Shown here one piece after another: positions 17,515-62,958 of a stretch of 64,000 nt of DNA. Each line of letters begins with the position of its first letter. The first letter of the stretch is position 1. Source of the stretch: Auricularia sp. M13 (lineage: Eukaryota; Basidiomycota; Agaricomycetes; Auriculariales; Auriculariaceae). The stretch is from contig CM073193.1 of assembly GCA_037042915.1 (NCBI GenBank), positions 5,084,001 through 5,148,000 on the forward strand. Reading direction: 5' to 3'. The translations under genes were made by a program, and so were the position numbers. The notes below the pieces were generated by a model. It was not told the origin of the DNA. It did no database searches and was given only the letters and a program-made list of their open reading frames with translations.

Positions 17515-18105
17515 CAATTTAGTCTGAAAGCCAAATACGACCTCACGCTCATAGGGACGACCGGCACTCGCTACTCGATCAGCTCTCCCCGGGCTGGCCG
17601 TGTACCAGCACACCCGGCGCATCGAGCGCCTGACACTACAATATCCTGGCCGAAGCTCCCAGCTCTACCTCCCCGCGCTCCGCTCGCTGCAGGTTCTCAG
17701 TCTACCAGAGAGCGAATACTCGCGCGGGCAGCGATACGACCAGCAGCCCGGTGCTCTGGTCGCGCCGGCGTTACGCAGGCTCGATCTGGCGTGGCTGGCG
17801 CTGCGCATGCCGCTTAAGAAGGCCGACATACACTACATCTGTCAGAGGCTGCGCCGTCTTTCTGCACTCCACCGTTCCACCGCCGCCGATTCAGAAGTTG
17901 TGCTAGAGCGAGAGACAGTGACCATGGTCGGCCCGCCGAAGATTCAGAAGGAACATGAGACCAACACGCTCGCGGCGCTCGTGCAAGAGGTCGTGATTAT
18001 ACATCGCCCGATCTCACCTTGTCTACAGCGTGTTCGATGATCTCGCGAAGTTCTCTTCCATCGTAAAGTCTGCAAAGGAGACTACGAAGTTCCCTACCGA
18101 CCCTG
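17515..18105 (+). pseudogene. F-box family I relic (C-terminal part)
   Basis: Matches only the C-terminal third of the F-box protein encoded just downstream: KAKYDLTLIG (family AKDDLTLSAP), HTRRIERLTLQYPG, LYLPALRSLQVLSL, ALVAPALRRLDLAW and VQEVVIIHRP, then a short VFDDLAKF remnant. N-terminal and F-box parts are absent and the first block is out of frame with the rest. It ends about 145 nt before the start of the intact paralogue, suggesting a tandem duplication whose first copy decayed. Confidence 0.75.
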
Positions 18106-18249
18106 AAACTCTGGCTCAGATATCCTTGTCTTCGTCATCGGAGCCTAGCATGTCACAACGCTTCCGACTATCCGGATACTCGGTCTCTACGTAATGGGTG
18201 TGGTGGCGTTCAATTGAAAGGGGAGGAAGTCAAACACGTTCAAACAACC

Positions 18250-19908
18250 ATGATCTTAGCTCCGAACCACCGCGACGCGCTGCACGCAAACGTCCTTGGA
18301 ATCCTGCGAGGCTACGCCCATACATTGGACAGGTGCGTGTATGATGATGGGATGTACAGTACGGACGAATGGGCTAAATGGAGTGCCAGCACGCAGGATG
18401 TCGCGGACGCGATGTCCGCCGTTTTTGGCGTCGTCCACGAGGCGTGTGCGGACTTCAAGAATTCGTGGAACTGTCGCCCTCGCGCAGCATGGATCATGCG
18501 GCTCCCCGACGAGCTCCTCGCTGCAACATTCCATTTCATGGATTTCAAGCAACGGATGGTCGCGAGCCAGGTGTGTCGGGCGTGGCGTGCCACTGCATTG
18601 TCGGCTCGCACGCTCTGGACCGACATCATTTTGTATTATGACCGCAAAAGCGGCAACCCTTCGGCGCTTTGTTCACTGCTCATCCCGCGGAGCCACCCCG
18701 TACCGTTCCGACTCACCATCGTAATGGGGAATTATTACCAGGATCCGGGCCCTGACACCGTTGCCATCTTGAGGCGCAATATCTGGCGCTTGGAATCGTA
18801 CTCGGGCAACGGTCGTCTTGCATTGATGGCCGAGCTCGGCCAGTGTCGTGCTCCTGCCCTCATTTCCGTCAACTTTGGCTTTGGAGGCGGTGACGTGCTG
18901 CGCATCTCGAATCTTTGGGGTGGTGGGGGTTCCAGCCATCTCTACAGCATGAGGATAGGCAGCTTCAGCTTCGCATCGGACATTAGACCGTTCACCGCGC
19001 TCCAACATTTTTCCGGGCGCCTCACTCTCAACGGACGCGAGGCCATACACTTGTTTCAACTCTGCCCTCGACTTCTAACTCTCCGTCTTTCCAACGTGTT
19101 TGAAACGTCAGTGCTCCCATCTCCTCCTATTCCACCCTTTCTGCAGGAGGTTACGCTCGAAATGGCTTCGATCCATGGCTATGCGGGTGTACAGTCTCAG
19201 GATCCCAGTACTGCGCTCTCAGCTTGGAAAGGCTGGCGTCTCCGTTGCCTGAATCTGCTTGCAGTAGACACCATAGATCCGGGTGTGAGGCTGTTTACCA
19301 AAGCCTGTCGCGGCCCTTGGAGTCTCTTCGTTTCTGCCAAGGACGATTTGACACTCTCTGCCCCAGACGACGTCAGGTACACGATTTGCCTCACTCAGAC
19401 CGCATTTTACAATCCATTTCGCGCGCTGGCCATACATACAAGCAGGATCGAACGACTGGCCATCACCGCACCTTGTCTCCTAGGGATGCACTCCGCTAAG
19501 ATACACCTGCCGGCCCTTCACTCCCTGCAGATTTTATTTCGCAGAGAGTTCTCTGATCAGCAATGGCAATACATCTCGGCTTCTGCGAGCGGCATCGTTG
19601 CGCCGTTACTGGCGACGATGGACCTGATCTTGATACCGTTTCGCCCACACCTCGAGGCCGCTGCTCTGCGTTGTATTTGCCACCGGCTACCGCTTCACCT
19701 GCGCGAGTTGATCTCCTTCCACGCGACTATTTTACGACGGGTGACGTTGACGCTTGTCGGTGAGCAGCAGAGCGTGCCCAGCACCGATGACCTCGCCCCG
19801 CTGGCTCAGGAGGTCGCGCTGATACTTCGTCCTGATCTTTCCCCCGACGTGTTCGATGATTTGAGTATTTTCCCTGCCGACCCCAAATCTCTCTTGACTG
19901 ATGTATGA
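18250..19908 (+). CDS. F-box protein, family I (intact)
   Basis: Uninterrupted single-exon gene of 552 codons. ATG at 18250 is chosen because all relatives align from MIL..NHR. The F-box lies at about residues 88-130 (WIMRLPDELLAATFHFMDF, then SQVCRAWRATALSARTLWTD), so it is expected to bind Skp1 in an SCF ubiquitin ligase. The remainder is a leucine-rich region without regular repeats (for example IHLPALHSLQILF, ERLAITAP), the presumed substrate-recognition part. An Agaricomycete-type expanded family: this window also holds relics of it at 10145, 17515 and 50230 and a further copy at 62959. Substrate unknown. Confidence 0.88.
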   Translation: MILAPNHRDALHANVLGILRGYAHTLDRCVYDDGMYSTDEWAKWSASTQDVADAMSAVFGVVHEACADFKNSWNCRPRAAWIMRLPDELLAATFHFMDFKQRMVASQVCRAWRATALSARTLWTDIILYYDRKSGNPSALCSLLIPRSHPVPFRLTIVMGNYYQDPGPDTVAILRRNIWRLESYSGNGRLALMAELGQCRAPALISVNFGFGGGDVLRISNLWGGGGSSHLYSMRIGSFSFASDIRPFTALQHFSGRLTLNGREAIHLFQLCPRLLTLRLSNVFETSVLPSPPIPPFLQEVTLEMASIHGYAGVQSQDPSTALSAWKGWRLRCLNLLAVDTIDPGVRLFTKACRGPWSLFVSAKDDLTLSAPDDVRYTICLTQTAFYNPFRALAIHTSRIERLAITAPCLLGMHSAKIHLPALHSLQILFRREFSDQQWQYISASASGIVAPLLATMDLILIPFRPHLEAAALRCICHRLPLHLRELISFHATILRRVTLTLVGEQQSVPSTDDLAPLAQEVALILRPDLSPDVFDDLSIFPADPKSLLTDV

Positions 19909-23110: not shown

Positions 23111-24352
23111 TCACTGTGACTCACGAGAGCTTATAGTCAATGATGCTGGGCACAACAGTGACGTTGGCGTAGCTACAATCAACGCTGCTTCAGCCCCATC
23201 TACTCCGAAGACGGAGCATGGACGAGCAGCAAGCGGGATATCAGCATCAAGAACGACGATAACCACCTCGAGTGCTGGCAGACTGTCCGGCCGAAGCCAA
23301 GGGACGACCAGATCCCAAAGGGATACGAAGATGGCAAGCTCTACGAGTTGCTTGTCAAGCGAGGGTAGATTTAAGAAGCGGACCACGGCGAGTCCGCCTG
23401 GCGGAGTGTCGGCAGACACTGAGTTTTCTTCGATGGCCCTGACGATGCCAGACGAGGTGCAGATGATCGATCGCATGTTGCATTGCCCTAGAGTCGGAAT
23501 GGCTTCTATGGTAACAGTCAAATGCTCTTGCACATGGCTGGCAAGAGCCAGTAGCTCAGCAGCGACTGGACACGCGATGACGAGGGCAGAGATAGGATAT
23601 GTGTCCAAGTTCTGCAAGAGAGCAAGGTTATTGCCATCCTCGAGGGCAAGGTCGAGATACGTCAGCTGCGCAAATCTGCGCATAAATTCGGAGGATATGC
23701 GCTGTGAGAATTCCACCCATCCTCCTGTCATTACGAGCCTATCAAGACACGGGAAAACGGAGAAGATGTGGTGGGGAAAGCGGTGTCCGCTGTCAATCCA
23801 CCAAGACATGATCACGATGCGGCCGTGTGTGAAGGCTGCAGCAGGAGTTTCCGGTATGTCTACACCGTTAAGTTCTACCTCCACAAGTGCCGGAGCTGTG
23901 CCGCCAAAGATGCTCGCGGGTATGGAATACGAGTTTCGAAGGCCGGCCTGACTGATGGTAAGCTGGAGGTGCTCCATGTGCGGCGCCCCCTGTTTGAGCA
24001 TGTCGCAGATGGCATCGAAGTAGACTGGATTCAATTCAAGTTGGAGCCTGCGTAATCGAGGCAGTAGCTCCGGTAGCCAGTAAAGTAGCGTAACGATGAC
24101 CGGATCCTCATCAGTCAATTCTACGCACAGGTTGCATATCCGAGTTCCGCCCAAGTCCAAGCGAGCTCTAGCCGACCTGAAAGCGCTGCGACTGAGCGCG
24201 TGGATGGATATGTCGCGCCAAAAGGTAGGATGGTTATGAACAACGGAGCGCCAGAGGCTACAGACACCAGCGGCCAGCCATAGCTCGCTGAGGGTGAGCC
24301 AGTCGAAGACAAGGAGCCAAATTTCGGGAGGTAGGCGACTGAGTAGCGACAT
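23111..24352 (-). CDS. F-box protein, family III
   Basis: Uninterrupted 413-codon gene. ATG at 24352 gives MSLLSRLPPEIWLLVFDWLT at the very N-terminus, an F-box (LPPEIW ... AGVCSLWRSVVHNHPTFWRD) expected to contact Skp1. The rest is leucine-rich (LPELLPRLRRLQLELNP, VFPCLDRLVMTGGW, FAQLTYLDLAL), consistent with a substrate-binding solenoid. It differs in sequence from the other two F-box families here. A TATATA element lies about 35 nt upstream of the ATG, flanked by a C-rich stretch on the coding strand. An earlier in-frame ATG exists at 24445. No breaks seen. Confidence 0.82.
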   Translation of the reverse strand: MSLLSRLPPEIWLLVFDWLTLSELWLAAGVCSLWRSVVHNHPTFWRDISIHALSRSAFRSARARLDLGGTRICNLCVELTDEDPVIVTLLYWLPELLPRLRRLQLELNPVYFDAICDMLKQGAPHMEHLQLTISQAGLRNSYSIPASIFGGTAPALVEVELNGVDIPETPAAAFTHGRIVIMSWWIDSGHRFPHHIFSVFPCLDRLVMTGGWVEFSQRISSEFMRRFAQLTYLDLALEDGNNLALLQNLDTYPISALVIACPVAAELLALASHVQEHLTVTIEAIPTLGQCNMRSIICTSSGIVRAIEENSVSADTPPGGLAVVRFLNLPSLDKQLVELAIFVSLWDLVVPWLRPDSLPALEVVIVVLDADIPLAARPCSVFGVDGAEAALIVATPTSLLCPASLTISSRESQ

Positions 24353-24720
24353 TGTGTCGTTTGTACAACGATGATGACGGCCGGGTATATAAGGGGGCAA
24401 AGAACAACGCACCGTCATGCCAATGAAAGTACAAGGCGTTGGCAATGGTCAGCCAGGCCGCAGAGAGCCTGCCCAGCGCACGGAGTCCAGGATTGTGCGA
24501 TAGCGTCGCATGTTCGTCGGTATGCCACGTAGAGTCAGTAGTGGTGGTTGTAGTAGTAGCAAATTCAACCTCTGGCCCGCGAGATTCGGAAGCATTGCAT
24601 GCAATCTAATGCTTCCGAAACCTTTTGGCACGGAAAGAATGGAACTACCGGTAAGAAGGGTAGAGCGAATATATGAAGGAAATAAGTTTGTGAAATTATC
24701 TTCACTCTGTAATATTATCT
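24353..24720. other. spacer with a hairpin and a short tandem repeat
   Basis: Upstream region of the F-box gene at 23111 and 3' flank of the split F-box gene. It holds a 12-bp-stem inverted repeat at 24585-24619 (TTCGGAAGCATT / AATGCTTCCGAA, 11-nt loop) and a 19-bp tandem repeat at 24695-24733 (ATTATCTTCACTCTGTAAT, one mismatch) that runs over the stop codon of the split gene. The minus-strand frame at 24449-24724 is not recognisable. Confidence 0.6.
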
Positions 24721-25175: not shown

Positions 25176-26072
25176 TTACCACTCAAAACCGGTAAACGAT
25201 TCTACGTCACCAGGAGACGCTGCGAGCGCTGCGACGTGCGCGGAGCCAGAGAGCGAAGCGAGCTCCTTGTCCGTCATGAAGCGGTCGCCCTCAAGGCAAA
25301 TGTTGCAGTCGGCGGCGAAGTGGCCCTGCAGGTGACAGCGGTGGCACGTCTTCTCACCGCTCGGGGTGCGCAATGCACCAGCGGCGGGGCGTGCAGGACG
25401 CCGAGGGCCCGAACTCGTGGCCGAGGTGGATGGCCGATAGCGGGCAGCAAGCGCGCGGTTCTCCTCGCGCGACTCGTCGATCCCCGAATTGCGGTCGGAC
25501 GAGCGGCGGGTCCACTCGTTAACAATGCAACGCTTGACGTAGTCCGGTTTCATGGCGTTCTTGTCGAAACCATCGAGCGTCTGGATGAAAACCTCCCAGT
25601 CGGAGCCAAGGCCGTTGAGCATGACGTAGACAACGAGGAAGTCGGGTATCGTGATGCCGAGTCCACAAAGTCGGGTTGCGTTGGATTCAACGCGGCCAGT
25701 CCAGGTCGCACCGGTGTCGTCCTCATGGAAATGCATCTTCAAGAATTCGCGGAAGAGGGTGAAGCCAGTTCCGAAGCCCTTCGGACGGAACGTGTCCTGC
25801 AGACGCGCAAACGCTTCCGAAGCCGAGTCCGAGTCCTTGATGTAGCCCAGCATGTCAAAGCCCACACATACAACGAGCAGCGATTTGGCGGCAGTCTGGG
25901 CCTGCGCATAGGCAGCGGAAGAGTCGTAATCGGTGACGGCGGCGGTACCCTCGAGGATCTTGCGGTAGCCGCGGACATCGGCGATGGCGAGCAGCATCTG
26001 GCGCCAGGGTTCGTAGTTGGACAGCGACAGGGGCCAGATGGAGTAGCCATCAGCACGGATGTGGTCGGTCAT
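25176..26072 (-). CDS. copia-type gag-like frame of the short LTR element
   Basis: Part of the LTR fossil at 24982-38911. A 298-codon open frame with the copia-type nucleocapsid organisation: a helical gag region, a basic Arg/Pro-rich linker and one CCHC zinc knuckle (CHRCHLQGHFAADC). It ends about 40 nt before the LTR. Confidence 0.8.
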   Translation of the reverse strand: MTDHIRADGYSIWPLSLSNYEPWRQMLLAIADVRGYRKILEGTAAVTDYDSSAAYAQAQTAAKSLLVVCVGFDMLGYIKDSDSASEAFARLQDTFRPKGFGTGFTLFREFLKMHFHEDDTGATWTGRVESNATRLCGLGITIPDFLVVYVMLNGLGSDWEVFIQTLDGFDKNAMKPDYVKRCIVNEWTRRSSDRNSGIDESREENRALAARYRPSTSATSSGPRRPARPAAGALRTPSGEKTCHRCHLQGHFAADCNICLEGDRFMTDKELASLSGSAHVAALAASPGDVESFTGFEW

Positions 26073-26199
26073 GTGGGAGATAGCGCGGGCCGGGCAGGTG
26101 CGGAGCGTGGGGAAAAGAAGAGGATGGGGTCAGGATAACCCGAATCAACAAAACAAGGTTTGAGATAAGCAAAGCGAGCACCGCGCCCTCTGGCGACGG

Positions 26200-26340: not shown

Positions 26341-26699
26341 TAGCTTTGGTGAACGGGAGCCAACCGTGATCCGTCTGTGTTAGCTTTCGCCGTGCCCGAT
26401 GCGCGAAGGGTCTGGTTGGTATTCCGTTTGTCCCGCGTGTAGCTACAGCACCCTAGGCAATCAGTTTGTGACCCCTCAGGCCTCTAGCCGAGACCACTGA
26501 TGTGGGGCCAGAGGGGTCACAAACAAACACGCACTGAGCACAGCCACCATCATCGGCCGCCTCTGAAACCAAATTCCCACCTGGCCAGGTTGTTGCTGGC
26601 GCATTCCAGCGCATTTTGGCGACAAATGTGACATTCTACAACACTAATATACACTCAGAGGGACGCATGGTGCATTCTCAGACGTCCTGGACGTTGTGG

Positions 26700-27430
26700 G
26701 CTTTCCAGCGGCAGCCGCGGTATTTGCACAGCCACCAGCCACACACAGCAGCAGCAGTTCCAGCGGCGGCCGCGGGTTTTGCACAGCCACGGATTGCACT
26801 GGTGGATTGCTTTCCAGCGGCGGCCGAGGGAAAGCACAGCCACAATCCCGCGGTCGTTGCCAGCAGCAACAAGCAGCGCATTACAGCGCGCAGAGCGCAA
26901 CGGCGCCGCGGCAGCCTGTTAGGACAGCCAATACATGCTGCATGAGCCGAGAAGTCACCAAAACTGACATTCTAGAGGTTGCTGGTTGCACTCCTCAGCG
27001 CCGGCAGCAGCGTTGAAACTGCAGCGGCAGCGGCGAGCCCAGTTGCAGTTCCCGCACTGCAGCACGCTCAAGAACACTGACCAGCGTCGTCTGGGATGTG
27101 TTGGATCGCAGGACAATGCACTAGGTGGTCTCCGCACTGTTGCTCTCGTTTCATCGGCGGCCGCGGGAAAGCACAGCCACAATGTCGCAACCGCGATGAG
27201 CAGCAATGAGCAGCGCATTGCAGTGGCAATTGCAGATGCTTTCTGTGCTTCAGAACGTTTGTTGTGACTCAATAACGCAGATAGGCTCAGTATATTGTCG
27301 ATGACAGTGCTCTGGGACGCTGGGTACAGTGTGCAGGTGCAGGCAGTCAATTGCGCGGCGGCCGAGGGAATGCACAAACAATGCCAAACAATGCACACAT
27401 CGCAACCGCGGCGGCCGAGGGAAAGCAGTC
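26700..27430. repeat. reiterated GC-rich motif in the left foldback arm
   Basis: Six copies of a motif resembling CGGCGGCCGNGGGAAAGCAC, mostly followed by AGCCAC, at about 26706, 26762, 26815, 27154, 27354 and 27408. A related copy lies near 36256, and the right arm (37800-38560) has the same set inverted. Arrays like this in subterminal regions commonly serve as transposase-binding sites. That role is inferred. Confidence 0.7.
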
Positions 27431-28265
27431 TCGAGTTCTCCTGACTTGCCTCTCATTCTGCAACGCAAAACACACATCCAAGGGGACTATCTGAGTGTTA
27501 GGGACGTTGTGTTACGCCCGTGCCCCGGTCCGCGGACCTCACGTGCTCTCGGCATCACTCGGCGTCATTCTACGTCACTCGGTCAACTCGGTCAACTCGG
27601 TCAAGCTCCCGAATACCCGGCTTATCTCCCCTCGTGTTCATATGCTCGGGATATGTTCTCCTCATCGTCCTCTACCTCTAGACCTCTCCCTCACTTCTCT
27701 AGCTTCTCTCCTTACTCGCATACATCCACCTAACTCGCCTTGTCCCTACTGTATCGATAGTGTTCATATCCGGTTCGCCCCACTCGTCTTAGTCATTCGC
27801 CTCTCGTCATTCGTCCGATCCCCCGATACCTTACCCACTCGCTCTTACTCATCCTATCGGCCGATGACGACGATCTCTATTGATCTGAGGCCCCCTCTCC
27901 TTCGTCTCTAGGATACACTCCGAGTACATCGGATCACCTCCCCAGGTATAAAAGACCCTCGACTTTGTATCTAGCTCCCCAGTTACGAAATCGACATAGT
28001 CGTGCCCCTCGCACGCTCTATCTCTCTCTCTCGACTTCGCCTCTGGGTTCTCCCCTCGCCCGACTTACTCGTCTGAGTCCTCTGCTGCTCGCGGTCCCTT
28101 CGGTCGTGCTACTCGACGTAGCCGGTGTGCTCAATAACGCACTGAAGGCTCTAGTTGTTCGTTCGAGTGTTCTCTGCGCCCGGACGTTCGACTATCCTTG
28201 CAACCAAACCCCCAAGGCACAGCAGGCTTAACAGTATTTCGTAACTCGAGCTCCGCTCGAGTTGT

Positions 28266-29748
28266 ATGGCCTTTGAAACTCGACAGAATCTCAGAAGAAA
28301 CCAGGAAGAACCTCATCCTCTACTCGACTCCCCCGATGCTATTCTTCGCGAAGCTCGTCGTCAGGCTCGTCTTCGCGACCAACAACCTCCTCAGCCGGCT
28401 ACGCCTTCGCCATCAGTCTCGATGTCGGGCACTAGCCGCTTCGGATCATCTCGGCACTCACAACCGCCGAACGATGATGACGAAATCCTCTCGCAACACA
28501 CTCTCTCCGGCTCGCTTCACACCTCGCGTTTCTTGCCGGCCCAGTCCACACTACGCGCGGACCCGAGCGGTTCCTACCCTCCCTCAAGTCACACGACGCG
28601 ATCGCCTTCGCATCCCTCGACTCACTCGCTCGGCTCTCGACACCCTCTCGCGCTCGTTCCGTACACCGGCTCTCGCTCGACTCCTCGTTTTTTGCAGCAC
28701 TCCTCGTCGTTCCGCGGCTTCTTCCCATCCGGCACCCCTAACACGCCCCGGCGTGGCGGCGGGGGTGGCGGAGGAGGCGGCGGAGGTGGCGGCGGTGGAG
28801 GCGGAGGCGGCGGAGACGGCGGTGGCGGTGGTGGTCATCGAGGTGCTCCCTCGCCCTCATTGCACCACTCGCACCACTCGCACCACTCGCACCACTCGCA
28901 CGGCTCGCATCCTCCGAACCCTCCTCCCGGAGGTGGCGGCGGTGGGGGCGGTGGTGGCGGTAACGGTCCTCCTGGTCCCCGGGACCTCCCTTTGACCCTC
29001 CGTCGGACGGCTACGACTCGGACGTCGATCGCGAACGACAATTCCACGATCAACACGACAACGTCCCTCGTGTCTACTTCGTCGACCGCGACAGCGGCTC
29101 TCGCATCGACGCCGCCAAACCCGACAAATTCGACGGCGAAAACGCCAACAAACTTCGCGGATTCCTCATCGACTGCGAAACCTACTTCCTCGCCAACCCT
29201 CGGAAGTACCAGACGTCCCGCGAGAAGATTCTCTTCACCGCGACCTATCTCTCGGGTCGGGCGAAGGAATGGTGGGGCGGCTACGTTCCTCTCGCCCCGA
29301 ATCCGCCTCCCGGTTACGAGTTCCTCGAAGACTGGAACGAATTCAAGAACGAACTCACGATCACCTTCGGCGTCACGAACGAACGCGAACGCGCCGAAGT
29401 CAAGATTCGACGACTGCAAATGGCCGACAACGGCAAGGTCGCCCGCTACAAGCTCCAGTTCGACGAATACGCCAAACTACTCGGCTGGGACGACGCTGCA
29501 CTCGCCTCGCAATTCTATCGCGGACTCCCTCGCCGCATCAAATCTGTCTTCGCTGCTCAAGTAGCTCAACGCCCGGCTTCTCTGACGCCACTCGCTGCGC
29601 TCGCTCTTAGCATCGACGCCAACTACTGGATCGATAAGGACGAGCAAGCTCTCGAGCACGCGAACGAACCCCGTAAAGCGCAGAAGACCACCTCGACCGC
29701 GACGCCTCAATCGGGCTCCCGATCGAACACCAAGTCCAACGCGCGCTC

Positions 29749-29779
<31 letters not shown>

Positions 29780-29929
29780 TCGAACAACCACTCGAACTCG
29801 AGGGGTCAGTCCTCGACCTCGGCCCGCTCGTCTTCGAAGACCACGACCAAGTCGAAGGGACGACGTCGCGAAGAACCTCAACTCGAACGGCAAGCTCAAC
29901 GACGCCGAACGACGCCGTCGCCTCGATAA
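28266..29929 (+). CDS. gag-like region of the Ty3/gypsy element
   Basis: Part of the LTR fossil. It contains low-complexity Pro/Ser, poly-Gly and His-Ser repeat tracts, then a capsid-like segment. A CCHC-type knuckle (CLYCGHAGHTASEC) lies just downstream. Frames overlap here, and I do not resolve them further. Confidence 0.7.
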
Positions 29930-30151
29930 CAACCTCTGCCTCTACTGTGGCCATGCCGGCCACACCGCGTCCGAGTGCCGCAAGGCCGCTCACAATCGTG
30001 AGTCGAAGGGTCGCGCCGCTAAGGCTCAACCCGCGACTTCCTCGACGCCGGCTCCCGCTCCCTCGGGCGCCGCCGCTTCTGCCCCGGCGGAAGCGAAAAA
30101 CTAACGGGCAGTTCCCCACGGGCATCTAGGGCCAACTGCGTCAAGCCCAAG

Positions 30152-33100
30152 ATGCCTTACACTCGGTTGAACGCTGCCGCGCTCACCGATCAAGACGCTC
30201 TCATCGTCGTCCTTTCCTCCGACGCTGTCCCATCCTTTCGCACACTCGTCGACTCCGGCTCCGAAGATCAGTTCCTCGATACTCAGTTCGCCGAGAGTCT
30301 TCGACTCCCTCAAAAGTCTCTCGATCAACCGCTACGCCTTCGGCTCTTCGACGGCTCCTATCGCAGCGTTATCTCCAAATACGTGTCGCTTCCCGTCCGC
30401 TTCCCTTGCGGAACTTCGATGATCATCAACTTCCTCCTCACCACTCTAGATCCGACTTGCTCTGCAGTGCTGGGATACCGCTGGTTGGCCCGCTACAATC
30501 CTAGGATTGACTGGTTCCATCACCACATCTCTTTCCCCACTCGTGTCTCGCCCTCGGATCCCTCGGGTTTCGTCCCTGGGTTCTCGCTCGACTCGGATCC
30601 TCCGACTCCATCGTCACCTCCTCCCGCGCCACGTACTCTGCCTCCCGAACCGCCGATGGACGAAACCGCCCTTCGCGCGGCCGCTGCTCGCGTCGACATC
30701 AAAATCATCGGCGCCGCAGCCTTCGACACCTCTCGTCGACTTCGCGGCTCGATGGTCTCGGCCATCTACATTCGAGATCCATCGCTGCCCGCTCGCTCTG
30801 CGTCTGCCAACCCGGCCTCGGAAACCGGCGAAGGCATCCCCGAGTGTTATCACGAGTTTCTCGACGTCTTCTCAAAGGAGGCCTCGAATCGACTCCCTGA
30901 ACATCGACCGTACGATCTCAAGATCGACATGGAAGAAGGCAAGCCTCTCCCATCCGGTCCGATCTACTCGCTCTCCGAGCCCGAGCAACTCGCGCTTCGG
31001 GAGTACATTCAGGATAACCTCAGCAAAGGACACATTCGCTCTTCGTCGTCCCCGGGTGGCGCCCCGGTTCTCTTCGTCAAGAAGGCCGACGGTTCTCTTC
31101 GCCTATGCGTCGATTATCGTGGGCTCAACAAGATCACTCGGAAGGACAAGTACCCGCTTCCGCTCATCTCGTCCACGCTCGACCGCCTTCGCACCGCCAA
31201 GAAGTTCACCAAGCTCGATCTTCGTCTCAGATACAGCAACGTTCGCATCGCGGCCGGCGACGAGTGGAAGACTGCCTTTCGAACGCGCTACGGCACCTAC
31301 GAGTATCTCGTCATGCCTTTCGGTCTCACGAACGCTCCAGCCGCTTTCCAGCGCTTCATGAACGACATCTTCTCCGATCTCCTCGACGTCACGGTCACCG
31401 TCTACCTCGACGACATCCTTATCTACTCGGACGATCCCTCGAAGCATGAGGAACACGTTCGAGAGGTCCTTCGACGGCTGCGGGAGAATGACCTCTTCTG
31501 TAAGCCCGAGAAGTGCGAGTTCCATGCTGACACCATTGAGTACCTCGGGTACATCATCAGCCCCGAGGGCATCAGCATGGACCCGAAGAAGATTGCCACC
31601 CTCCTCGAGTGGCCCGTTCCTCGCAACGTTTGCGACATCCAGTCGTTCCTCGGCTTCGCGAACTTCTATCGACGATTCATCTACGATTACTCCGATATCG
31701 TCGTCCCGCTCACTCGTCTCACTCGAAAGACCGCAACGTGGAACTTCACTCCGCAATGCCTCGCTGCGTTCAACGAGCTCAAGAAGGCGTTCACTTGCGC
31801 TCCCGTCCTTCACCACTTCGATCCCGCTCTCCCTCGCGTCGTCGAGACTGACGCTTCCGACTACGCGATCGCGGCGATCTTCTCGCACGTCCTCCCGGAC
31901 GGCTCTGTTCACCCCGTCGCTTTCCATTCGCGCACGCTCACTCCCACCGAGCTCAACTACGACACGCACGACAAGGAGCTACTCGCGATATTCGAGGCGT
32001 TCGAACTATGGCGACACTACCTCGAAGGGGCCGAGACCCCAATAGACGTCGTCACGGACCACAAGAACCTCGAGTATTTCTCTACCACAAAGATGCTCAC
32101 TCGTCGGCAAGCTCGCTGGTCCGAGTACCTTTCTACCTTCAACCTCCTCATTCGCTTTCGACCCGGTCGACTCGGCGGCAAACCCGATGCTCTCACTCGC
32201 CGCCATGACGTCTATCTCAAAAGGGGGGATGGTGGCTACGCCAGCGCAAACCCGCAGAACTTCCGACCCGTTTTTACTTCGGAACAGTTCGCCGCTTCCC
32301 TTCGCGCGACGTATGCTGAAGAGACTTTCCTTCGCGCAGCCACGATCATGGACACTCAGTCCATTCGGGATGACATTCGCGCCTCGTACGACTCGGACGA
32401 ACTCGCTCTCGACATTCGCCCGAAACTCGGCACCGATGATGCGATCAACTGGTCGGCCTCGGACGATGGATTCTTGCTGTTCAAGGGCAGGATCTACGTA
32501 CCGAACGCTCTCGATTGTCGCCTTCGTATCCTTCGCGAAAAGCACGATCACCCGCTCGCTGGCCATCCGGGTCAGAACAAGACACTCAAGATGGTCGCCC
32601 GCAAGTACTACTGGCCCGACCTGCGCGACTCGATTCGTACCTACATCCAGGCCTGCGTCACCTGTGGGCGCAGCAAACCTCGACGACACAAGCCGTACGG
32701 TCGACTTCAACCGCTCCCGATTCCGCTTCGCAACTGGGACTCGATCTCGATGGACTTCATCGAACAACTCCCTGAGTCCAACGGTTACACCGCGATCCTC
32801 GTCATTATTGATCGCCTCTCGAAGCAGGGTATCTTCGTCCCGACCAAGGGCAAGATCACCTCCGAAGAACTCGCGCGTCTCTTCCTCATCCACGTCTTCG
32901 CCAAACATGGCGCTCCCTCGCACGTCTCTACCGACCGCGGCTCCGAATTCGTCTCCTGCTTCTTTCGCGCACTCGGCTCGCTCCTCAACATGACCATGCA
33001 CTTCACCTCGGGTCACCACCCGGAGGCGAACGGTCAAGTCGAACGCACGAACCAGACGCTCGAGCAGTACCTCCGTCTCTACTGCAACTACGAGCAGGAC

Positions 33101-34390
33101 AACTGGTCCGAGCTACTCCCTCTCGCCGAATTCACGTACAACAACACCCCGAACGACTCGACTGGTGTCTCGCCTTTCTTCGCCAACAAGGGTTTTCACC
33201 CGAACATCTCCGTCTACCCCGAGCGCGACGTTGCCTCTGCTCGCGCCTGCGACTTCGCTGTCGACATCCACGAACTGCAGGACGTCCTGAAGGAGCAGAT
33301 CGCTGCCGCTCAGAAACGTTACACTGCATCTGCGAATGCTCGACGCACTCCCCCGCCTGACTTCAAGGTCGGCGACATGGCCTACGTCCTCTCGGAACAC
33401 ATCAAGACGACGCAGCCCACCCGCAAACTCGCCGATCGCTACCTAGGCCCGTTCCTGATCGTCGATCAACCTAGCTCGCAATCGTTCACCCTCAGCCTAC
33501 CCGACTACCTCGCTCGCGTACACCCGGTCTTTCACGTCTCGCAACTCGAACCCCACCCTCGAGAAGCGTTCCCCGGTCAACGTCAAGAACCTCCTCCGCC
33601 CGTCGTCGTCGACGGCGAGCAGGAGTACGAGCTCGAAGTACTCAGCGTACGCATCGACAATCGCCATCGTCACTCGCGCCTTCGTTTCGCATTCGCTGGA
33701 TCGGTCACATCGGCACTCCCGACGACCCCGAGACCACCGAGATGGGCTCCGAAAATCTCGAACACGCGCAAGAAGCAGTTCAAGACTTCTATGCTGCAAA
33801 TCCCAGCGCTCCCGGCAGTTATCAAGAGTTCCAGCAAATCCTCAAGAAATTCGAAAACATCTAAGCACTCGCTTTTTCACTCGCTATTTCTTCGCTCACT
33901 CGCTTTTCACCCGATTCCAAGAAACAGTCATTTATTACATTTTGGGCGACTTTGGTCGCACCCGCTACTACTCTACCCTATCGCCTACTCGTCCGCGTCC
34001 TCGGTCGCTTCCTCGACCGCTTCCTCGGACTCCTCCTCGGACTCCTCCTCGACCTCCTCCTCGGCCTCCTCTTCCTCCTCGCTCGTGAACGGGTCGTCGA
34101 TCGAATCATCGATCGACTGGCCGAACTGCTGCGCTTGCCACTGCAGCATCCGGTACAACATCCGCTCGATGTTGTGCACGGAGTTGTTCGTCCACAGGGC
34201 GTGGTTCTCCACGACCCTGCGATGCTCGGCCGTCTTCGCGCGGTCCTCGGCCGCCCTCGTCCCCAGCGTCGTCCCCTCGACGATGCGCACCTTCTTGGGG
34301 CGCTCGGGCGACGCACTCGGCGACGCCGCCCTCTTCTCGCCGCGCGGCACGAACGGCTTGCCCGAGTGCGTACACTTGCCCCGGGTCTGA
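30152..34390 (+). CDS. pol-like frame of the Ty3/gypsy element
   Basis: Part of the LTR fossil: a 1412-codon open frame. Visible are the protease motif VDSGSEDQF, the reverse transcriptase core VYLDDILIYS with LVMPFGLTNAPAAFQ, the RNase H motif ETDASDYAI, the HHCC integrase zinc region (HPLAGHPG ... CVTCGRSK) and the catalytic integrase core (MDFIEQLP, STDRGSEF, HHPEANGQVERTNQ). The tail after about 33860 is low-complexity and probably not functional protein. Confidence 0.92.
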   Translation: MPYTRLNAAALTDQDALIVVLSSDAVPSFRTLVDSGSEDQFLDTQFAESLRLPQKSLDQPLRLRLFDGSYRSVISKYVSLPVRFPCGTSMIINFLLTTLDPTCSAVLGYRWLARYNPRIDWFHHHISFPTRVSPSDPSGFVPGFSLDSDPPTPSSPPPAPRTLPPEPPMDETALRAAAARVDIKIIGAAAFDTSRRLRGSMVSAIYIRDPSLPARSASANPASETGEGIPECYHEFLDVFSKEASNRLPEHRPYDLKIDMEEGKPLPSGPIYSLSEPEQLALREYIQDNLSKGHIRSSSSPGGAPVLFVKKADGSLRLCVDYRGLNKITRKDKYPLPLISSTLDRLRTAKKFTKLDLRLRYSNVRIAAGDEWKTAFRTRYGTYEYLVMPFGLTNAPAAFQRFMNDIFSDLLDVTVTVYLDDILIYSDDPSKHEEHVREVLRRLRENDLFCKPEKCEFHADTIEYLGYIISPEGISMDPKKIATLLEWPVPRNVCDIQSFLGFANFYRRFIYDYSDIVVPLTRLTRKTATWNFTPQCLAAFNELKKAFTCAPVLHHFDPALPRVVETDASDYAIAAIFSHVLPDGSVHPVAFHSRTLTPTELNYDTHDKELLAIFEAFELWRHYLEGAETPIDVVTDHKNLEYFSTTKMLTRRQARWSEYLSTFNLLIRFRPGRLGGKPDALTRRHDVYLKRGDGGYASANPQNFRPVFTSEQFAASLRATYAEETFLRAATIMDTQSIRDDIRASYDSDELALDIRPKLGTDDAINWSASDDGFLLFKGRIYVPNALDCRLRILREKHDHPLAGHPGQNKTLKMVARKYYWPDLRDSIRTYIQACVTCGRSKPRRHKPYGRLQPLPIPLRNWDSISMDFIEQLPESNGYTAILVIIDRLSKQGIFVPTKGKITSEELARLFLIHVFAKHGAPSHVSTDRGSEFVSCFFRALGSLLNMTMHFTSGHHPEANGQVERTNQTLEQYLRLYCNYEQDNWSELLPLAEFTYNNTPNDSTGVSPFFANKGFHPNISVYPERDVASARACDFAVDIHELQDVLKEQIAAAQKRYTASANARRTPPPDFKVGDMAYVLSEHIKTTQPTRKLADRYLGPFLIVDQPSSQSFTLSLPDYLARVHPVFHVSQLEPHPREAFPGQRQEPPPPVVVDGEQEYELEVLSVRIDNRHRHSRLRFAFAGSVTSALPTTPRPPRWAPKISNTRKKQFKTSMLQIPALPAVIKSSSKSSRNSKTSKHSLFHSLFLRSLAFHPIPRNSHLLHFGRLWSHPLLLYPIAYSSASSVASSTASSDSSSDSSSTSSSASSSSSLVNGSSIESSIDWPNCCACHCSIRYNIRSMLCTELFVHRAWFSTTLRCSAVFARSSAALVPSVVPSTMRTFLGRSGDALGDAALFSPRGTNGLPECVHLPRV

Positions 34391-35226
34391 TGACACGCGG
34401 TGCATGTGTTCGACCGGTGCTGCCGAACGCACTGGCCGCCGCGCTTGGCGCAAGCCTTGCACTGCTCGATGTCAGCCCCGGCGAGCAAAACACGAACGAC
34501 CGAAAACTTACCTGGCTCGGGAACCGCGTCCCGTACGGCACCTCCGGCCACCTGTCCGTGAACTTGCCGCCTGCGCGCGGCTTGGGCTTGGGCTTGGGCT
34601 TCGCGGCCGGCGCCACCGGGCTCGCGATCTCCTCGACCTCGTCGTCGTCCTCGAGCGTCTCGCCCGCCCCGAGCGACGGCGAGCGAGCGACCGCGACCGG
34701 CGCGGGTTTTGGCGCGACCTTGCGCGGCGCCTGAGCCGTCTTCGCGACATCGACCTAAAAAACAAAAGCGCACCTTAGCCAGATCGCGCAGTCGAGGTAA
34801 CTCGACCCATACCTCCATGGCCTTCCGCCTCTTCGGCGGCGACTCGGTCTCCCTCGCGTCCTTCGCCGGTGCCTTCGTGCTCGTGGTCGGCACTTTCGCC
34901 GGCGACGCCTGGCTCTTCGTCGCCTTGGCGCCCGCGTCCGCCGCGATCTTGGCCACGCGCTCGGCCAGCATCCCGAAGCGTCGCTGCGCCGCCAGGCGCA
35001 GCTCGGCCTTCGCCTGGCGTCTGCGCGCGCTGAACGCCTCGATCGCGTCGAGGTCCTCCTCGTCGACGGCCTCTTGCTGCAGGCCGCCGAGCGTCCGCTT
35101 CGCGTCCTCGTGCGCCGCGATCAGCGCCTCCATCGTCGGGTCGTCCTCGAGCGACCTCATGACGGCGCCGACGGTCTTGCGGTCGTACGTGGCGGCGACG
35201 TCCTCGAGCGATTCGTATCGTGGCAT
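33985..35226 (-). CDS. antisense Cys-rich frame inside the Ty3/gypsy element
   Basis: A 413-codon frame opposite to pol, between the end of pol and the 3' LTR. N-terminal part: helical, charged (LEDVAATYDRKTVGAVMRSL). C-terminal part: a cysteine-rich segment (CKACAKRGGQCV ... CTACHQTRGKCTHSGK) resembling fungal zinc-cluster proteins, then a basic Pro/Lys segment and a long acidic Glu/Ser tail. The centre is Arg/Ala-rich and less protein-like, and may hold an intron. It is either a cargo gene carried by the element or a host-type DNA-binding gene captured by it. Coding status is unproven. Confidence 0.55.
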   Translation of the reverse strand: MPRYESLEDVAATYDRKTVGAVMRSLEDDPTMEALIAAHEDAKRTLGGLQQEAVDEEDLDAIEAFSARRRQAKAELRLAAQRRFGMLAERVAKIAADAGAKATKSQASPAKVPTTSTKAPAKDARETESPPKRRKAMEVWVELPRLRDLAKVRFCFLGRCREDGSGAAQGRAKTRAGRGRSLAVARGGRDARGRRRGRGDREPGGAGREAQAQAQAARRRQVHGQVAGGAVRDAVPEPGKFSVVRVLLAGADIEQCKACAKRGGQCVRQHRSNTCTACHQTRGKCTHSGKPFVPRGEKRAASPSASPERPKKVRIVEGTTLGTRAAEDRAKTAEHRRVVENHALWTNNSVHNIERMLYRMLQWQAQQFGQSIDDSIDDPFTSEEEEEAEEEVEEESEEESEEAVEEATEDADE

Positions 35227-38200
35227 GGTGGGCGGCGGGCAGAAGACAAAGAGTGGTTCGACGATTCAACTCCCGACCCAACCACTTTTAATCTGCGTCC
35301 GACCCGTTCCGACCCGACCCGATCTTTTGGCCCCATTCGGACTCGAGTGCGCACTATCTCATTTTTCGTATTCACCTTGTGTTGCTGCAGTCCTTCGTGG
35401 GCTCAGGACGTAAAGGGGGGATACTGTTACGCCCGTGCCCCGGTCCGCGGACCTCACGTGCTCTCGGCATCACTCGGCGTCATTCTATGTCACTCGGTCA
35501 ACTCGGTCAACTCGGTCAAGCTCCCGAATACCCGGCTTATCTCCCCTCGTGTTCATATGCTCGGGATATGTTCTCCTCATCGTCCTCTACCTCTAGACCT
35601 CTCCCTCACTTCTCTAGCTTCTCTCCTTACTCGCATACATCCACCTAACTCGCCTTGTCCCTACTGTATCGATAGTGTTCATATCCGGTTCGCCCCACTC
35701 GTCTTAGTCATTCGCCTCTCGTCATTCGTCCGATCCCCCGATACCTTACCCACTCGCTCTTACTCATCCTATCGGCCGATGACGACGATCTCTATTGATC
35801 TGAGGCCCCCTCTCCTTCGTCTCTAGGATACACTCCGAGTACATCGGATCACCTCCCCAGGTATAAAAGACCCTCGACTTTGTATCTAGCTCCCCAGTTA
35901 CGAAATCGACATAGTCGTGCCCCTCGCACGCTCTATCTCTCTCTCTCGACTTCGCCTCTGGGTTCTCCCCTCGCCCGACTTACTCGTCTGAGTCCTCTGC
36001 TGCTCGCGGTCCCTTCGGTCGTGCTACTCGACGTAGCCGGTGTGCTCAATAACGCACCGAAGGCTCTAGTTGTTCGTTCGAGTGTTCTCTGCGCCCGGAC
36101 GTTCGACTATCCTTGCAACCAAACCCCCAAGGCACAGCAGGCTTAACACGTTGTAATTGCGCAGAACACGCAGCAAAACGTCATATGTTTGACTTTGGGT
36201 GCTCCAGTGGCAGCCTTTGATGAGCTCTGGGGATCGCCCTGCATCAAAAAACACCAAACACTTCCCGCGGCGGCCGCAGAAATGCGTCAAAGAGGATTGC
36301 CCAGTCTCTGGGGCTTGAGCCAGGTGCCCGGAGATAAGGGTCCGAGCTTTCTCTAACCTAAGTGCATGTTCAAAGTCATTCCCTGCGCAATATGAGCATG
36401 TAGTTATGTTCCTTTATGTTTTCTCAGCAATAATATACTGTTTCCGAGCCCTTGGAACTCTGTGTTGAGCTGCTATGCAGGGTTCAAGACCTAGAAATGC
36501 GAGGTGAATAGAAACTGAGATACCAGTGAACACCCTTCGCACTCATATTAAAAAACCGTCGCCGTCGTGCCCCAAACGTGCTCCAACTTACGCCATTTGT
36601 GTAGCTGCGCTCTCAAACTCAGGGTGCATGGTGCTTTCTCCCTGATGGGGGACCATTTGCACCCACAGCCATACAGCCCAGGGGAAGCTCTGAGACGCTG
36701 GGGATACTCACTTCATACTCACAAACTCCTATTCCGGCCATGTGCCTAGTCAGATATGTTGCCGTCTGCATGGAAAAAGCGTGGAAACAGGAGGTCAGGG
36801 TCTCATACAGATGCATGAATTCACCACCATCCCTCGCATTTCAGGCATTTTTTTGGGTCATATTCAACTCATATTACATTGTCCTAGGACCTCCAAATAA
36901 AATTAGGCTGGCCCTGCATCAGTTTCTCCTGAGATTACATGTTGTCAGCTTTGTGAGAGTCTGACCAGAGTTTGCACTGAGAACCTACTCCAGGTTTCTA
37001 CTGACTCCAGTTTTTGTTGGAAAAGTTAGATTTAGGACTAATAACTAGGAACTGACTGAAATAGGGACCTGGAATGCGAGGAATGGTGGGGAATTCATGC
37101 ATTTGTATGAGACCCTGACCTACTGTTACCTCGCTTCCAGGGTGCTATTTCCTGCCTCTCTCGCCAGGCACAACACAAAGAATGCTTTCTATGAGCACCT
37201 AGAGTGTACTTCTAGCTTCGTAGACCAAGCCCTGCATTGGTTGTCTCTGGGTGCAAGTACCTCCCCATCACTGGGAACAACACTTGCATCCAGAGCTGCA
37301 GAGTGGATATTTTGCCCTGCTGTAACCTCGATATCTACTATTGATGTAAACCAAGGTATTTTTACTATTTGAGCTAAGGGGAAGGAGAGGTATTCCATGT
37401 TCCATTGACTTCGCATTTCTGGGTTTTGAACCCTGAATACCAGCTCATCCAAGGGCTCCTAGAGCTTGAGAACATGATATTATTGCTGAGAAAACATAAA
37501 GGAACATAAATACATGCTCAAAATGCGCAGGGGATGACTTTGAACCTGCACTTAGGTTAGAGGAAGCTCGGACCCTTATCTCCGGGCACCTGGCTCAAGC
37601 CCCAGAGACTGGGCAATCCTCTTTGACGCATTTCCGCGGCCGCCGCGGGAAGTGTTTGGTGCTGTTGATGTAGGGCAATCATCCAAACTCATCAGAGGCT
37701 GCCACTGGAGCACCCAAAGTCGAACATATGACTTTTGCAGTGCATTCTGCGCAATTGTAATGTTCTAATCACTCACACAGTCCCCTAGGATGCGTATTCT
37801 GCACTGCAGAGCAAGGGGAAAGTCAGGAAAACACAAGGTTGCTTTCCCTCGGCGGCCGCGGTTGCGATGTGTGCATTGTTTGGCATTGTTCGTGCATTCC
37901 CTCGGCCGCCGCGCAATTGACTGCCTGCACCTGCACACTGTACCCAGCGTCCCAGAGCACTGTCATCGACAATATACTGAGCCTATCTGCGTTATTGAGT
38001 CACAACAAACGTTCTGAAGCACAGAAAGCATCTGCAATTGCCACTGCAATGCGCTGCTCATTGCTGCTCATCGCGGTTGCGACATTGTGGCTGTGCTTTC
38101 CCGCGGCCGCCGATGAAACGAGAGCAACAGTGCGGAGACCACCTAGTGCATTGTCCTGCGATCCAACACATCCCAGACGTCGCTGGTCAGTGTTCTTGAG

Positions 38201-38911
38201 CATGCTGCAGTGCAGGAACTGCAATTGGGCTCGCCGCTGCCGCTGCAGTTTCAACGCTGCTGCCGGCGCTGAGGAGTGCAACCAGCAACCTCTAGAATGT
38301 CAGTTTTGGTGACTTCTCGGGCTCATGCAGCATGTATTGGCTGTCCTAACAGGCTGCCGCGGCGCCGTTGCGCTCTGCGCGCTGTAATGCGCTGCTTGTT
38401 GCTGCTGGCAACGACCGCGGGATTGTGGCTGTGCTTTCCCTCGGCCGCCGCTGGAAAGCAATCCACCAGTGCAATCCGTGGCTGTGCAAAACCCGCGGCC
38501 GCCGCTGGAACTGCTGCTGCTGTGTGTGGCTGGTGGCTGTGCAAATACCGCGGCTGCCGCTGGAAAGCCCACAACGTCCAGGACGTCTGAGAATGCACCA
38601 TGCGTCCCTCTGAGTGTATATTAGTGTTGTACAATGTCACATTTGTCGCCAAAATGCGCTGGAATGCGCCAGCAACAACCTGGCCAGGTGGGAATTTGGT
38701 TTCAGAGGCGGCCGATGATGGTGGCTGTGCTCAGTGCGTGTTTGTTTGTGACCCCTCTGGCCCCACATCAGTGGTCTCGGCTAGAGGCCTGAGGGGTCAC
38801 AAACTGATCGCCTAGGGTGAGCTACAGAGCGTTGCGGACAAACGGATGCGGAACGGAATGAACTCCGATGCCCATATGAACGGAGCGCGGACATAAGCTC
38901 AAATGCTAACA

Positions 38912-40192
38912 GTGGGTTGGTCAATTGCCAGTCTCAGTGTAGTGAGTAATTGATAGTCTGGCAAGAAGGGTCGCATGAGAGACCAGATTGAGGCGTCAAT
39001 CATCAGGGAAGAAAGCTGGTTAGCGAAAGCTTGATCCTCCAGCAAGGGATTAGGATCGCACTCCACGTCTGACGCACTGTACATGTCGCGCGCATCGATA
39101 AAATGACGGATACGGTCAGTATGACTCGAGTAAACACTCAGCCAGATTGTCTGCTGGAACTCCCTGATGCGCAGATGCAACAGCGTGAGAATACCCGAGA
39201 GAGCATCGTATACTGTATCAAACTCCGGGCAGGAAATATGTAGGTCCGGTATGCGTTCCATGGGAAGTTGCTCAAAGAGCCATGACATTGTATTGCCATT
39301 GACCACAATCTCGAAGCCTTTCAAGCGCGAAAAGCCTTCGACTACCCGTGCTGGTAAAGGGCCCGACGGAGCGCAAGGCATAACGGAGTGCCCACCAATT
39401 CGAAATTCTTCTAGCCGGGGAAATACGGAGAAGACGTGACTTGTCACTTGGGAGCAGGATGCACAACTCCTCGTGAAACATGAAATAGAGCATTGTGACC
39501 TCAGACATGCCTGGCACAGAAAAAATGGGCAGATAAACGTTTTCGAGAGACACAAAGTGGAGCTGTGGAACGGACGTCCTCCCAAAGATAGATGTCCGTA
39601 GCGGATACCTCGATATCCCAATGACATCGCTGGGATTATCGACATGCAGGTGGAGACTGAAGCATTCCAAATTCGGTGCAGGGTCGTCCAAAATATCCCA
39701 GAGGCTTAGTGTGAAGATGTTATTGATGCGCACTTCTAGCTCGGAGACTGATGGAAGAGCGCTGGCGAGCAGCTTCAGCAAATCAGTCTCCACTCTGCGA
39801 TGTTCGGCCGTGTAGTCGATTGAAAGTAGGAACGGCCTGCTTCCTGCTGTGGCAACCTGGAGCGCAGCTAAGCGTAGAGAGCGAGGACTGATCGAGTCGA
39901 CATGTATCCTCCTCCAGAATCGCAAATCGTCCAGAGCAAGGCGCCGGAAAGCCCGAGAAACACAACTAATGTCAATTAGCTCGTAAATGTCGAACTCCAT
40001 GAGAATGCGAAACATCAGCTCGCTTGGAAGAGAGGAGAGGGATGGGCGGAGCGGCTCGGCCGGCGGCTGAACCGGGAGTGCGGTCCGCGAGAAGAGAGCA
40101 CGGGAGCGTAGACCCTGCAGAATACGCCCTGCTACAACCCTCAAGTCAAAGTATCCCAGAATGACCGATGCCCAGCGTCGGATGCGGGACAT
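38912..40192 (-). pseudogene. F-box gene II, 5' part (split by insertion, frame break)
   Basis: Starts MSRIRRWASVILGYFD at 40192. The F-box is at about residues 53-95 (LSSLPSELMFRILMEFDIYE, then SCVSRAFRRLALDDLRFW), followed by a leucine-rich region that aligns over its whole length with the gene at 50405-51930. A one-base shift occurs near 39450, between CILLPS and HVFSVFPRLEEF. The 3' quarter lies at 24721-24981 beyond the mobile-element nest, and the paralogue reads straight across the junction. A MITE touches the start codon. The gene is therefore dead or truncated. A protein ending in transposon sequence, after IDQP, is all that could be made. Confidence 0.88.
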
Positions 40193-40199
40193 ATCGAGT

Positions 40200-62730: not shown

Positions 62731-62958
62731 AGTTAGTGCTCGCTTGTAAATGGTGTATGTAGTAGGACTGCATGAGTTACTACTAGTTTCAATTTCGATA
62801 ACCGACTGGATCTACAAACGATGGATCCAGGGTTACCTTTTCGCGTCAAAAACGGTGGGAAAGAGATAAGTCGTTGTTCGAGTGCGTATCCCAGCGAGGT
62901 CAAGAATTGTTACGTCGGAAGTCCTTGGACAAGGCGGAGCAAACAGCATCAAACAACC

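Follow-up and report, generated by a model that had tools for sequence, protein, structure and literature searches.

Foldback-like elements have been described in the Mutator and P superfamilies of DNA transposons and, in a milder form, in Tc1/Mariner (PMC3169594; this and the following comparisons draw on parts of the cited papers). Galileo, a Drosophila element of the P superfamily, has long inverted arms, arms-only copies and several binding sites in its arms, and it shows arm lengthening, chimeric copies in which arms and centre come from different subfamilies, and a proposed conversion between arms (PMC3573991, PMC3688188). Mutator-type foldbacks (Tm1, FARE and perhaps Tetris) have composite inverted arms, repeated motifs and 8-10-bp target duplications; the arms of Tm1 are 93% alike on average, and homogenisation is possible in Tetris (PMC3169594, PMC4079207). 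Thus, long inverted arms are not unprecedented. Here we describe an element with long inverted arms in a stretch of 64,000 nucleotides of the mushroom Auricularia sp. M13 (assembly GCA_037042915.1, contig CM073193.1, forward-strand positions 5,084,001 to 5,148,000; hereafter the window). With a probability of roughly 0.86, this giant palindrome is a non-autonomous foldback DNA transposon of the Kyakuja-Dileera-Zisupton (KDZ) superfamily.

The KDZ superfamily carries TET/JBP genes in some fungi. The superfamily and its target duplications are treated in PMC12730594, PMC12477816 and PMC9297572. According to Kojima 2025 (PMC12730594), duplications are 8 bp long in Zisupton and in Zisupton-1_PGr, an element placed there in Dileera; the paper also describes TET-bearing Zisupton in Auriculariales and characterizes Kyakuja by 7-bp duplications, CA..TG termini and no terminal inverted repeats (TIRs). 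For a nematode Zisupton, the part of PMC9297572 drawn on here gives TIRs, with no duplications found. Foldbacks and the KDZ superfamily are each known, and what appears to be new is their combination. No report of a KDZ foldback was found among the matches listed in the open-licence literature (titles and abstract starts), a search that leaves most subscription literature outside and does not establish absence from print. An earlier examination of the DNA letters alone (the sequence-only reading) had suggested that the element may be an undescribed fungal family. The palindromes were indeed not found in that literature, but they attach to a known superfamily.

The palindrome occupies positions 26449-38819 of the window and measures 3,727 bp once a later retrotransposon insertion is subtracted. 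It is flanked by the 8-bp target duplication AGCTACAG (26441-26448 and 38820-38827), and both ends read CACCCTAGGC inwards; the sequence-only reading had placed this foldback and its duplication correctly, and coordinates, duplications and ends are exact. Inverted-repeat scanning and alignments delimited a left arm of 1,768 bp on the plus strand, in an outer (26449-27509) and an inner part (36154-36860), and a right arm of 1,767 bp on the minus strand (37053-38819). The centre between them, defined by the inverted-repeat scan, is 192 bp long (36861-37052). Arms of about 1.7 kb and a centre of about 220 bp had been estimated; the first value was close and the second too large. Counting gaps, arm identity per 100 bp is 97-100% out to 900 bp and 92% at 1,000 bp, and deeper it falls to 45-88%, save for one block at 98%. 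Without gaps, 36247-36554 and 37359-37666 are 86% identical. The term near-complete palindrome thus suits the outer part. The outer 500 bp of the arms differ at 2 sites and the following 562 bp are 95% complementary. Given these matches and the recurrence of this architecture on further contigs, the inverted structure is far beyond chance. No transposase was seen in the element's own sequence, as judged through the reading frames of the sister palindromes L025 and L027, which gave no KDZ protein match beyond the shared ends; its proposed lack of a transposase is upheld. Coding remnants in the arms were rejected on the same frames. A comparison of L025, L027 and L072 with Rfam-type known RNAs gave nothing near the gathering score, with four weak matches, all in L072.

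Copies were searched for in the host genome (52.1 Mb, 14 contigs), to which all genome-wide results below refer. Beyond the window copy, five two-ended giant palindromes and one truncated form were found. L025 (C1:4403684-4407182; duplication GTTTTACA) belongs to the same subfamily as the window element, and its right arm has a few hundred bases fewer than its left arm. L027 (C8:3319494-3324384; arms of about 2,374 bp, 96.8% alike, 146 bp between them), L028 (C7:2876949-2881838; arms of 2,373 bp, 99.2% alike) and L029/L030 (C1:2153068-2163881; an interrupted palindrome) have one arm type, different from that of the window element and L025. A third arm type is found in the palindrome on C10 (L072 558-3389; 2,832 bp), whose arms of about 0.97 kb are 93% alike. 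For the seventh palindrome (C2:1912071-1912366), the core with one arm was found. The inverted structure is preserved in the other copies and the duplication in most of them, which makes an assembly inversion very unlikely. Foldback artefacts do occur in long reads (part of PMC12870357), but an assembly or chimeric-read origin has a negligible probability here: two-ended copies lie on four contigs (C1, C7, C8 and C10) with different duplications, the arms are not identical, and one arm carries a retrotransposon insertion.

Relatives with the same ends were sought with the pattern CACCYYAGGCRATCWGTTTNNGACCCCY, allowing at most 3 mismatches. This gave 21 matches, corresponding to nine two-ended elements and three lone ends, whereas the reversed pattern used as a control gave none. 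Five of the nine two-ended elements are giant palindromes. The other four all contain internal KDZ matches (C5:3016988-3026079; C1:2664111-2680306; C1:2693247-2709449; C2:5047463-5064563), as does an additional element with long arms on C4. Transposase-bearing relatives, the existence of which the sequence-only reading had left to be checked, are thus present in the same genome. The two 16-kb elements on C1 are 99.8% identical, in opposite orientation and 13 kb apart, and each has its own, different duplication, which indicates recent KDZ movement. A protein of Auricularia subglabra shows 82% identity to one KDZ exon across 70% of the exon's length, in line with a host in the Auriculariales. 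Identical 8-bp duplications flank 9 of the 11 two-ended elements (five of six palindromes, four of five KDZ-bearing elements): AGCTACAG, GTTTTACA, ACCTCGGC, CGGAGACC, TTCGCCGG, GGGACGGT, GTCACGTC, TCCGCTCG and GGCTGTGA. The TIRs of three KDZ elements are short (118-178 bp); in C2:5047463-5064563 the comparison covered the outer 110 bp. Against these 8-bp duplications and TIRs of at least 118 bp, Kyakuja fits less well, given its 7-bp duplications, CA..TG termini and lack of TIRs. The Zisupton/Dileera type (PF18758) is alike in the KDZ domain of the same-ended or same-armed elements, in the 8-bp duplications and in the TIRs; the palindromes differ from it in having no transposase and arms of about 1-2.4 kb.

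The closest link between a palindrome and a KDZ element was found on C4. The two inverted arms of the element at C4:2923622-2934880 measure 1,129 bp, and both show 88% identity to the arm of the C10 palindrome. The element carries the duplication GGCTGTGA on both flanks and KDZ matches at E 2.7e-40 and 4.3e-22. A CxC1-like stretch lies upstream of the KDZ matches on the same strand (E 2.2e-5, just below the Pfam cut-off). Over the first 1.1 kb, the C4 right arm and the C10 arm agree at 1002 of 1025 ungapped sites (97%, against 88% counting gaps), so that their difference consists mostly of gaps. Moreover, the lone end L033 (C1:2336096) joins 330 bp of an L027-type arm (87% identical) to the C-terminal part of a KDZ sequence. 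Most foldbacks seem to be Mutator elements (part of PMC4079207), and the palindromes could be non-KDZ foldbacks, for instance Mutator or hAT ones, with ends that resemble KDZ ends by chance or exchange. We consider this explanation very unlikely, because KDZ matches are present in all four non-palindromic same-ended elements (no hAT or Mutator protein search being made) and the match between the C10 arms and the arms of a KDZ element extends over 1.1 kb. Both Mutator and hAT produce 8-9-bp target duplications.

The arms of each palindrome resemble one another within an element and differ between elements. This could be expected if each palindrome had a separate and recent origin in the fold-back (inverted) duplication of a single transposon end, arm identity then giving the age of the inversion. 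To compare sites, the four arms of two elements were aligned and each site scored as concerted (shared within an element) or arm-specific (left like left, right like right). No site was scored as arm-specific in any comparison. Concerted sites numbered 58 for L027 and L028 (2,439 columns; 108 other and 30 crossed), 66 for L027 and L029/L030 (827 columns; 3 other), 57 for L028 and L029/L030 (827 columns; 17 other) and 37 for the outer part of the window element and L025 (724 columns; 29 other). In the inner part of this last pair (628 columns), 4 concerted, 116 crossed and 68 other sites were counted, and the outer 119 bp of the C10 and C4 elements gave 2 concerted and 3 other sites. All 30 crossed sites of L027 and L028 lie beyond position 2300, i.e. 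at the centre. A palindrome can be written in either orientation, so crossed sites represent retained arm asymmetry: differences between arms that predate the copies, kept in the centres and erased in the arms. Counted directly, the two arms differ at 0 of 827 sites in L029/L030, 0 of 662 in L025 and 7 of 951 in the window element. Between elements, the L029/L030 arms differ from those of L027 and L028 at 64-69 of 827 sites, and the window arms from the L025 left arm at 62-63 of about 945 and from its right arm at 35-36 of about 615. In a tree over 2.3 kb, the two L028 arms group together (support 91).

Mutations common to both arms of one element require copying from arm to arm. Altogether, the comparisons point to gene conversion, through which the arms would evolve in concert while the centres retain old asymmetries. 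Separate fold-back events are improbable, as they would not share an asymmetric centre: the centres of the window element and L025, and of L027 and L028, keep 116 and 30 arm-specific sites respectively (scored as crossed), an inner block is common to six palindromes as an inverted pair and present once in C10, and the arm identity of L027 is patchy, with 100% blocks beside blocks at 81-86%.

This inner block, CATGAATTCCYCACYATYCCTCGCATTC, has 13 matches in the genome (at most 3 mismatches), all 13 inside the seven palindromes, and the control gave none. Apart from the single one in C10, the matches come as inverted pairs, six in all, with spacings of 258 or 268 bp. In the window, the pattern scan placed the left copy at 36814-36841 (plus strand, 2 mismatches) and the right copy at 37072-37099 (minus strand, 0 mismatches). 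Alignment showed the block to be conserved across the centres of L025, L027, L028, L072 and L073, and no Rfam family matched there in L025, L027 or L072. The C10 and L027 cores share 77% identity, yet the C10 arm matches neither the L027 nor the window arms and resembles L025 only weakly, over 66 bp. The arm types also go with two, perhaps three, KDZ lineages. L026 and L035 are 78-88% identical in their KDZ parts. The KDZ parts of L033 and the C4 element, compared with these and with one another over short aligned stretches, show about 23-41% identity. About 120 bp of end and a shared motif link the window arm type to the L026 lineage. The C10 type is linked to the C4 lineage by whole arms, and the L027 type to L033 through a one-ended element. 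As L033 is one-ended and the outermost 78 bp of the L027 end also match L035 (83%), a third KDZ lineage is likely but not firm. A related core with three arm types means that the core may have changed arms. We therefore put forward, tentatively and at rather less than even odds, that one palindromic core lineage persists by swapping arms, with ends acquired from two KDZ lineages and probably from a third. Such a swap would run via recombination and arm-to-arm conversion.

As for mobility, the most likely process is that the palindromes are moved in trans, by cut-and-paste, by a KDZ transposase. The enzyme, supplied by another element, would bind motifs in the arms, cut at CACCY... and insert the palindrome at cuts staggered by 8 bp. 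The arms would be kept alike by gene conversion, or by repair in which one arm serves as template for the other, and in the same way they could be replaced as a pair. Any genes would have been lost long ago, the palindromic core being inherited since. An origin of the palindromes by internal deletion from the KDZ elements examined here was also considered; this was rejected, as no DNA match was found past the ends save weak 64% stretches in L026, and the palindrome interior consequently forms a separate lineage.

Sites resembling GCGGCCGCC (9-mers, at most 1 mismatch, overlapping matches merged) form an array at 26553-27416 on the plus strand of the window, starting 105, 260, 315, 369, 460, 708, 907 and 960 bp from the end. 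The distance from the end to the first site is 103-105 bp in the window element, in L025 and at both ends of L026 and of L035/L036. In L026, the first six sites follow one another at 52-56-bp steps on both sides, although the sequences between them are unrelated beyond the TIR (about 178 bp). The motif arrays described by the sequence-only reading are thus real, and they extend to a KDZ element. The density of GCGGCNGCSG per kb is 10.4 and 6.4 in the left and right pieces of the window element, 7.1 in L025, 7.7 in L026, 1.5-2.3 in L035/L036, 0.4-1.2 in L027 and L028, and 0.2 in 50 kb of window flank. By analogy with the arm binding sites of Galileo (PMC3688188), we infer that the GC-rich arm sites are putative transposase binding sites. 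Spacings between motifs (n=39, up to 260 bp) mostly cluster at 40-42 and 50-57 bp. A hairpin lies at 26464-26524 (plus strand; DNA fold z -6.5), and alignment placed the same sequence, not folded separately, in the right arm at 38744-38804 (minus strand). Among the 6 of 21 ends that were folded, z was -3.9 in L026, -3.05 in C11, -2.3 in L027 and about 0 in L035 and C2. The proposed end hairpin therefore holds for the window element but not for all its relatives; as a shared functional structure it was rejected, given z values near 0 in L035 and C2, both transposase-bearing, and weak covariation.

Several observations weigh against parts of this interpretation. The element at C5:3016988-3026079 and the C10 palindrome (ends CACCTCAGGCAT) have no matching duplication. 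Apart from the C10/C4 pair and L033, palindromes share with KDZ elements only about 50-120 bp of end and the weak 64% stretches. The KDZ evidence consists of matches to genes that may be incomplete, and it covers part of the C4 element. The action of a KDZ transposase on these ends is itself deduced from ends, duplications and shared arms. With regard to conversion, not every arm comparison is one-sided: the L028 arms differ from each other at 17 of 827 sites, against 20-33 from the L027 arms, and the 827-bp tree does not join them (support 62). L027 is a less clear case, its arms being 72 of 2,299 sites apart, against 82-119 from the L028 arms. The L027 subfamily is poor in GC-rich sites, with none near its ends, and would need other binding sites. 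Helical phasing of the motif was dropped and no claim is made, as the Rayleigh statistic was stronger at 11-12 bp than at 10.5 bp and the spacings are not independent. Finally, in the covariation test of the hairpin, 25 of 500 shuffles reached its paired cells, 274 its pairs changed on both sides and 448 its further pair types, and a version slid by +2 comes close.

The insertion in the left arm (27510-36148, plus strand) is a Ty3/Gypsy-type long terminal repeat (LTR) retroelement, identified by alignments and domain matches and not itself part of the palindrome. This 8.6-kb element has 724-bp LTRs with 2 differing sites (27510-28233 and 35425-36148), its own 5-bp duplication CGTTG (27505-27509 and 36149-36153) and matches to gag, reverse transcriptase, RNase H and integrase. 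It entered the left arm after the palindrome was in place, as had been proposed from the letters alone. A Copia-type gag frame (25176-26129; PF14223, E 7e-14) lies a short way to the left of the palindrome. F-box-like frames are located at 18067-19908 (E 2.3e-8), 23111-24448 (5.2e-9), 39272-40198 (1.7e-10) and 62776-63975 (2.1e-12); the frame at 50405-51724 had no relative among 7,995 candidates scored, and positions 417-516 are a run of 100 N.

The KDZ superfamily is strongly expanded in the host genome. At least 149 KDZ-domain matches were counted in its 52 Mb; many are exon pieces, so that the genes are fewer. Two further frames lie within the element at C1:2664111-2680306, one cyclin-like (PF00134, E 5.3e-10) and one resembling an Ulp1 protease (PF02902, E 7.8e-9). 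A captured cyclin-like frame is common to L035 (1833-2738, PF00134) and L026 (minus-strand frame), with 87% identity over 115 aa. A second large frame with no Pfam match is found in L036 (3740-5881) and L026 (7365-8540; 36% identity over 120 aa), and the 713-aa second frame of the 16-kb element had no relative among 7,993 candidates scored.

The mushroom palindromes show the long near-identical inverted arms, short centre and internal repeated motifs of the foldback class. They differ from Galileo in transposase superfamily and in the length of the duplication (7 bp in Galileo), and their arms reach 2.37 kb, against at most 1.26 kb for Galileo in D. mojavensis; furthermore, the KDZ proteins that accompany their arm types share only about 23-41% identity where short parts of them align. 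Mutator-type foldbacks differ in their termini and in having a Mutator-type transposase (assigned for Tm1 and FARE, suggested for Tetris), and the motif units of Tm1 measure 13-15 bp, whereas the GC-rich motif of the mushroom palindromes recurs mostly at 40-57-bp steps.

KDZ thus appears to join the superfamilies in which foldback-like elements have evolved, the mirror-image design having seemingly arisen once more. Related elements with and without transposase in one genome, asymmetric centres and homogenised arms make conversion separable from age, and the formation and survival of multi-kilobase palindromes in a eukaryotic genome become directly testable in this mushroom. The same elements would offer a natural setting for testing whether a non-autonomous element can change its helper through an exchange of ends. 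If arm swapping is confirmed, the core would parasitise transposons, switching from one transposase to another according to availability, and the inner block would be its cis-acting element, acting for example in hairpin replication, repair or helper silencing.

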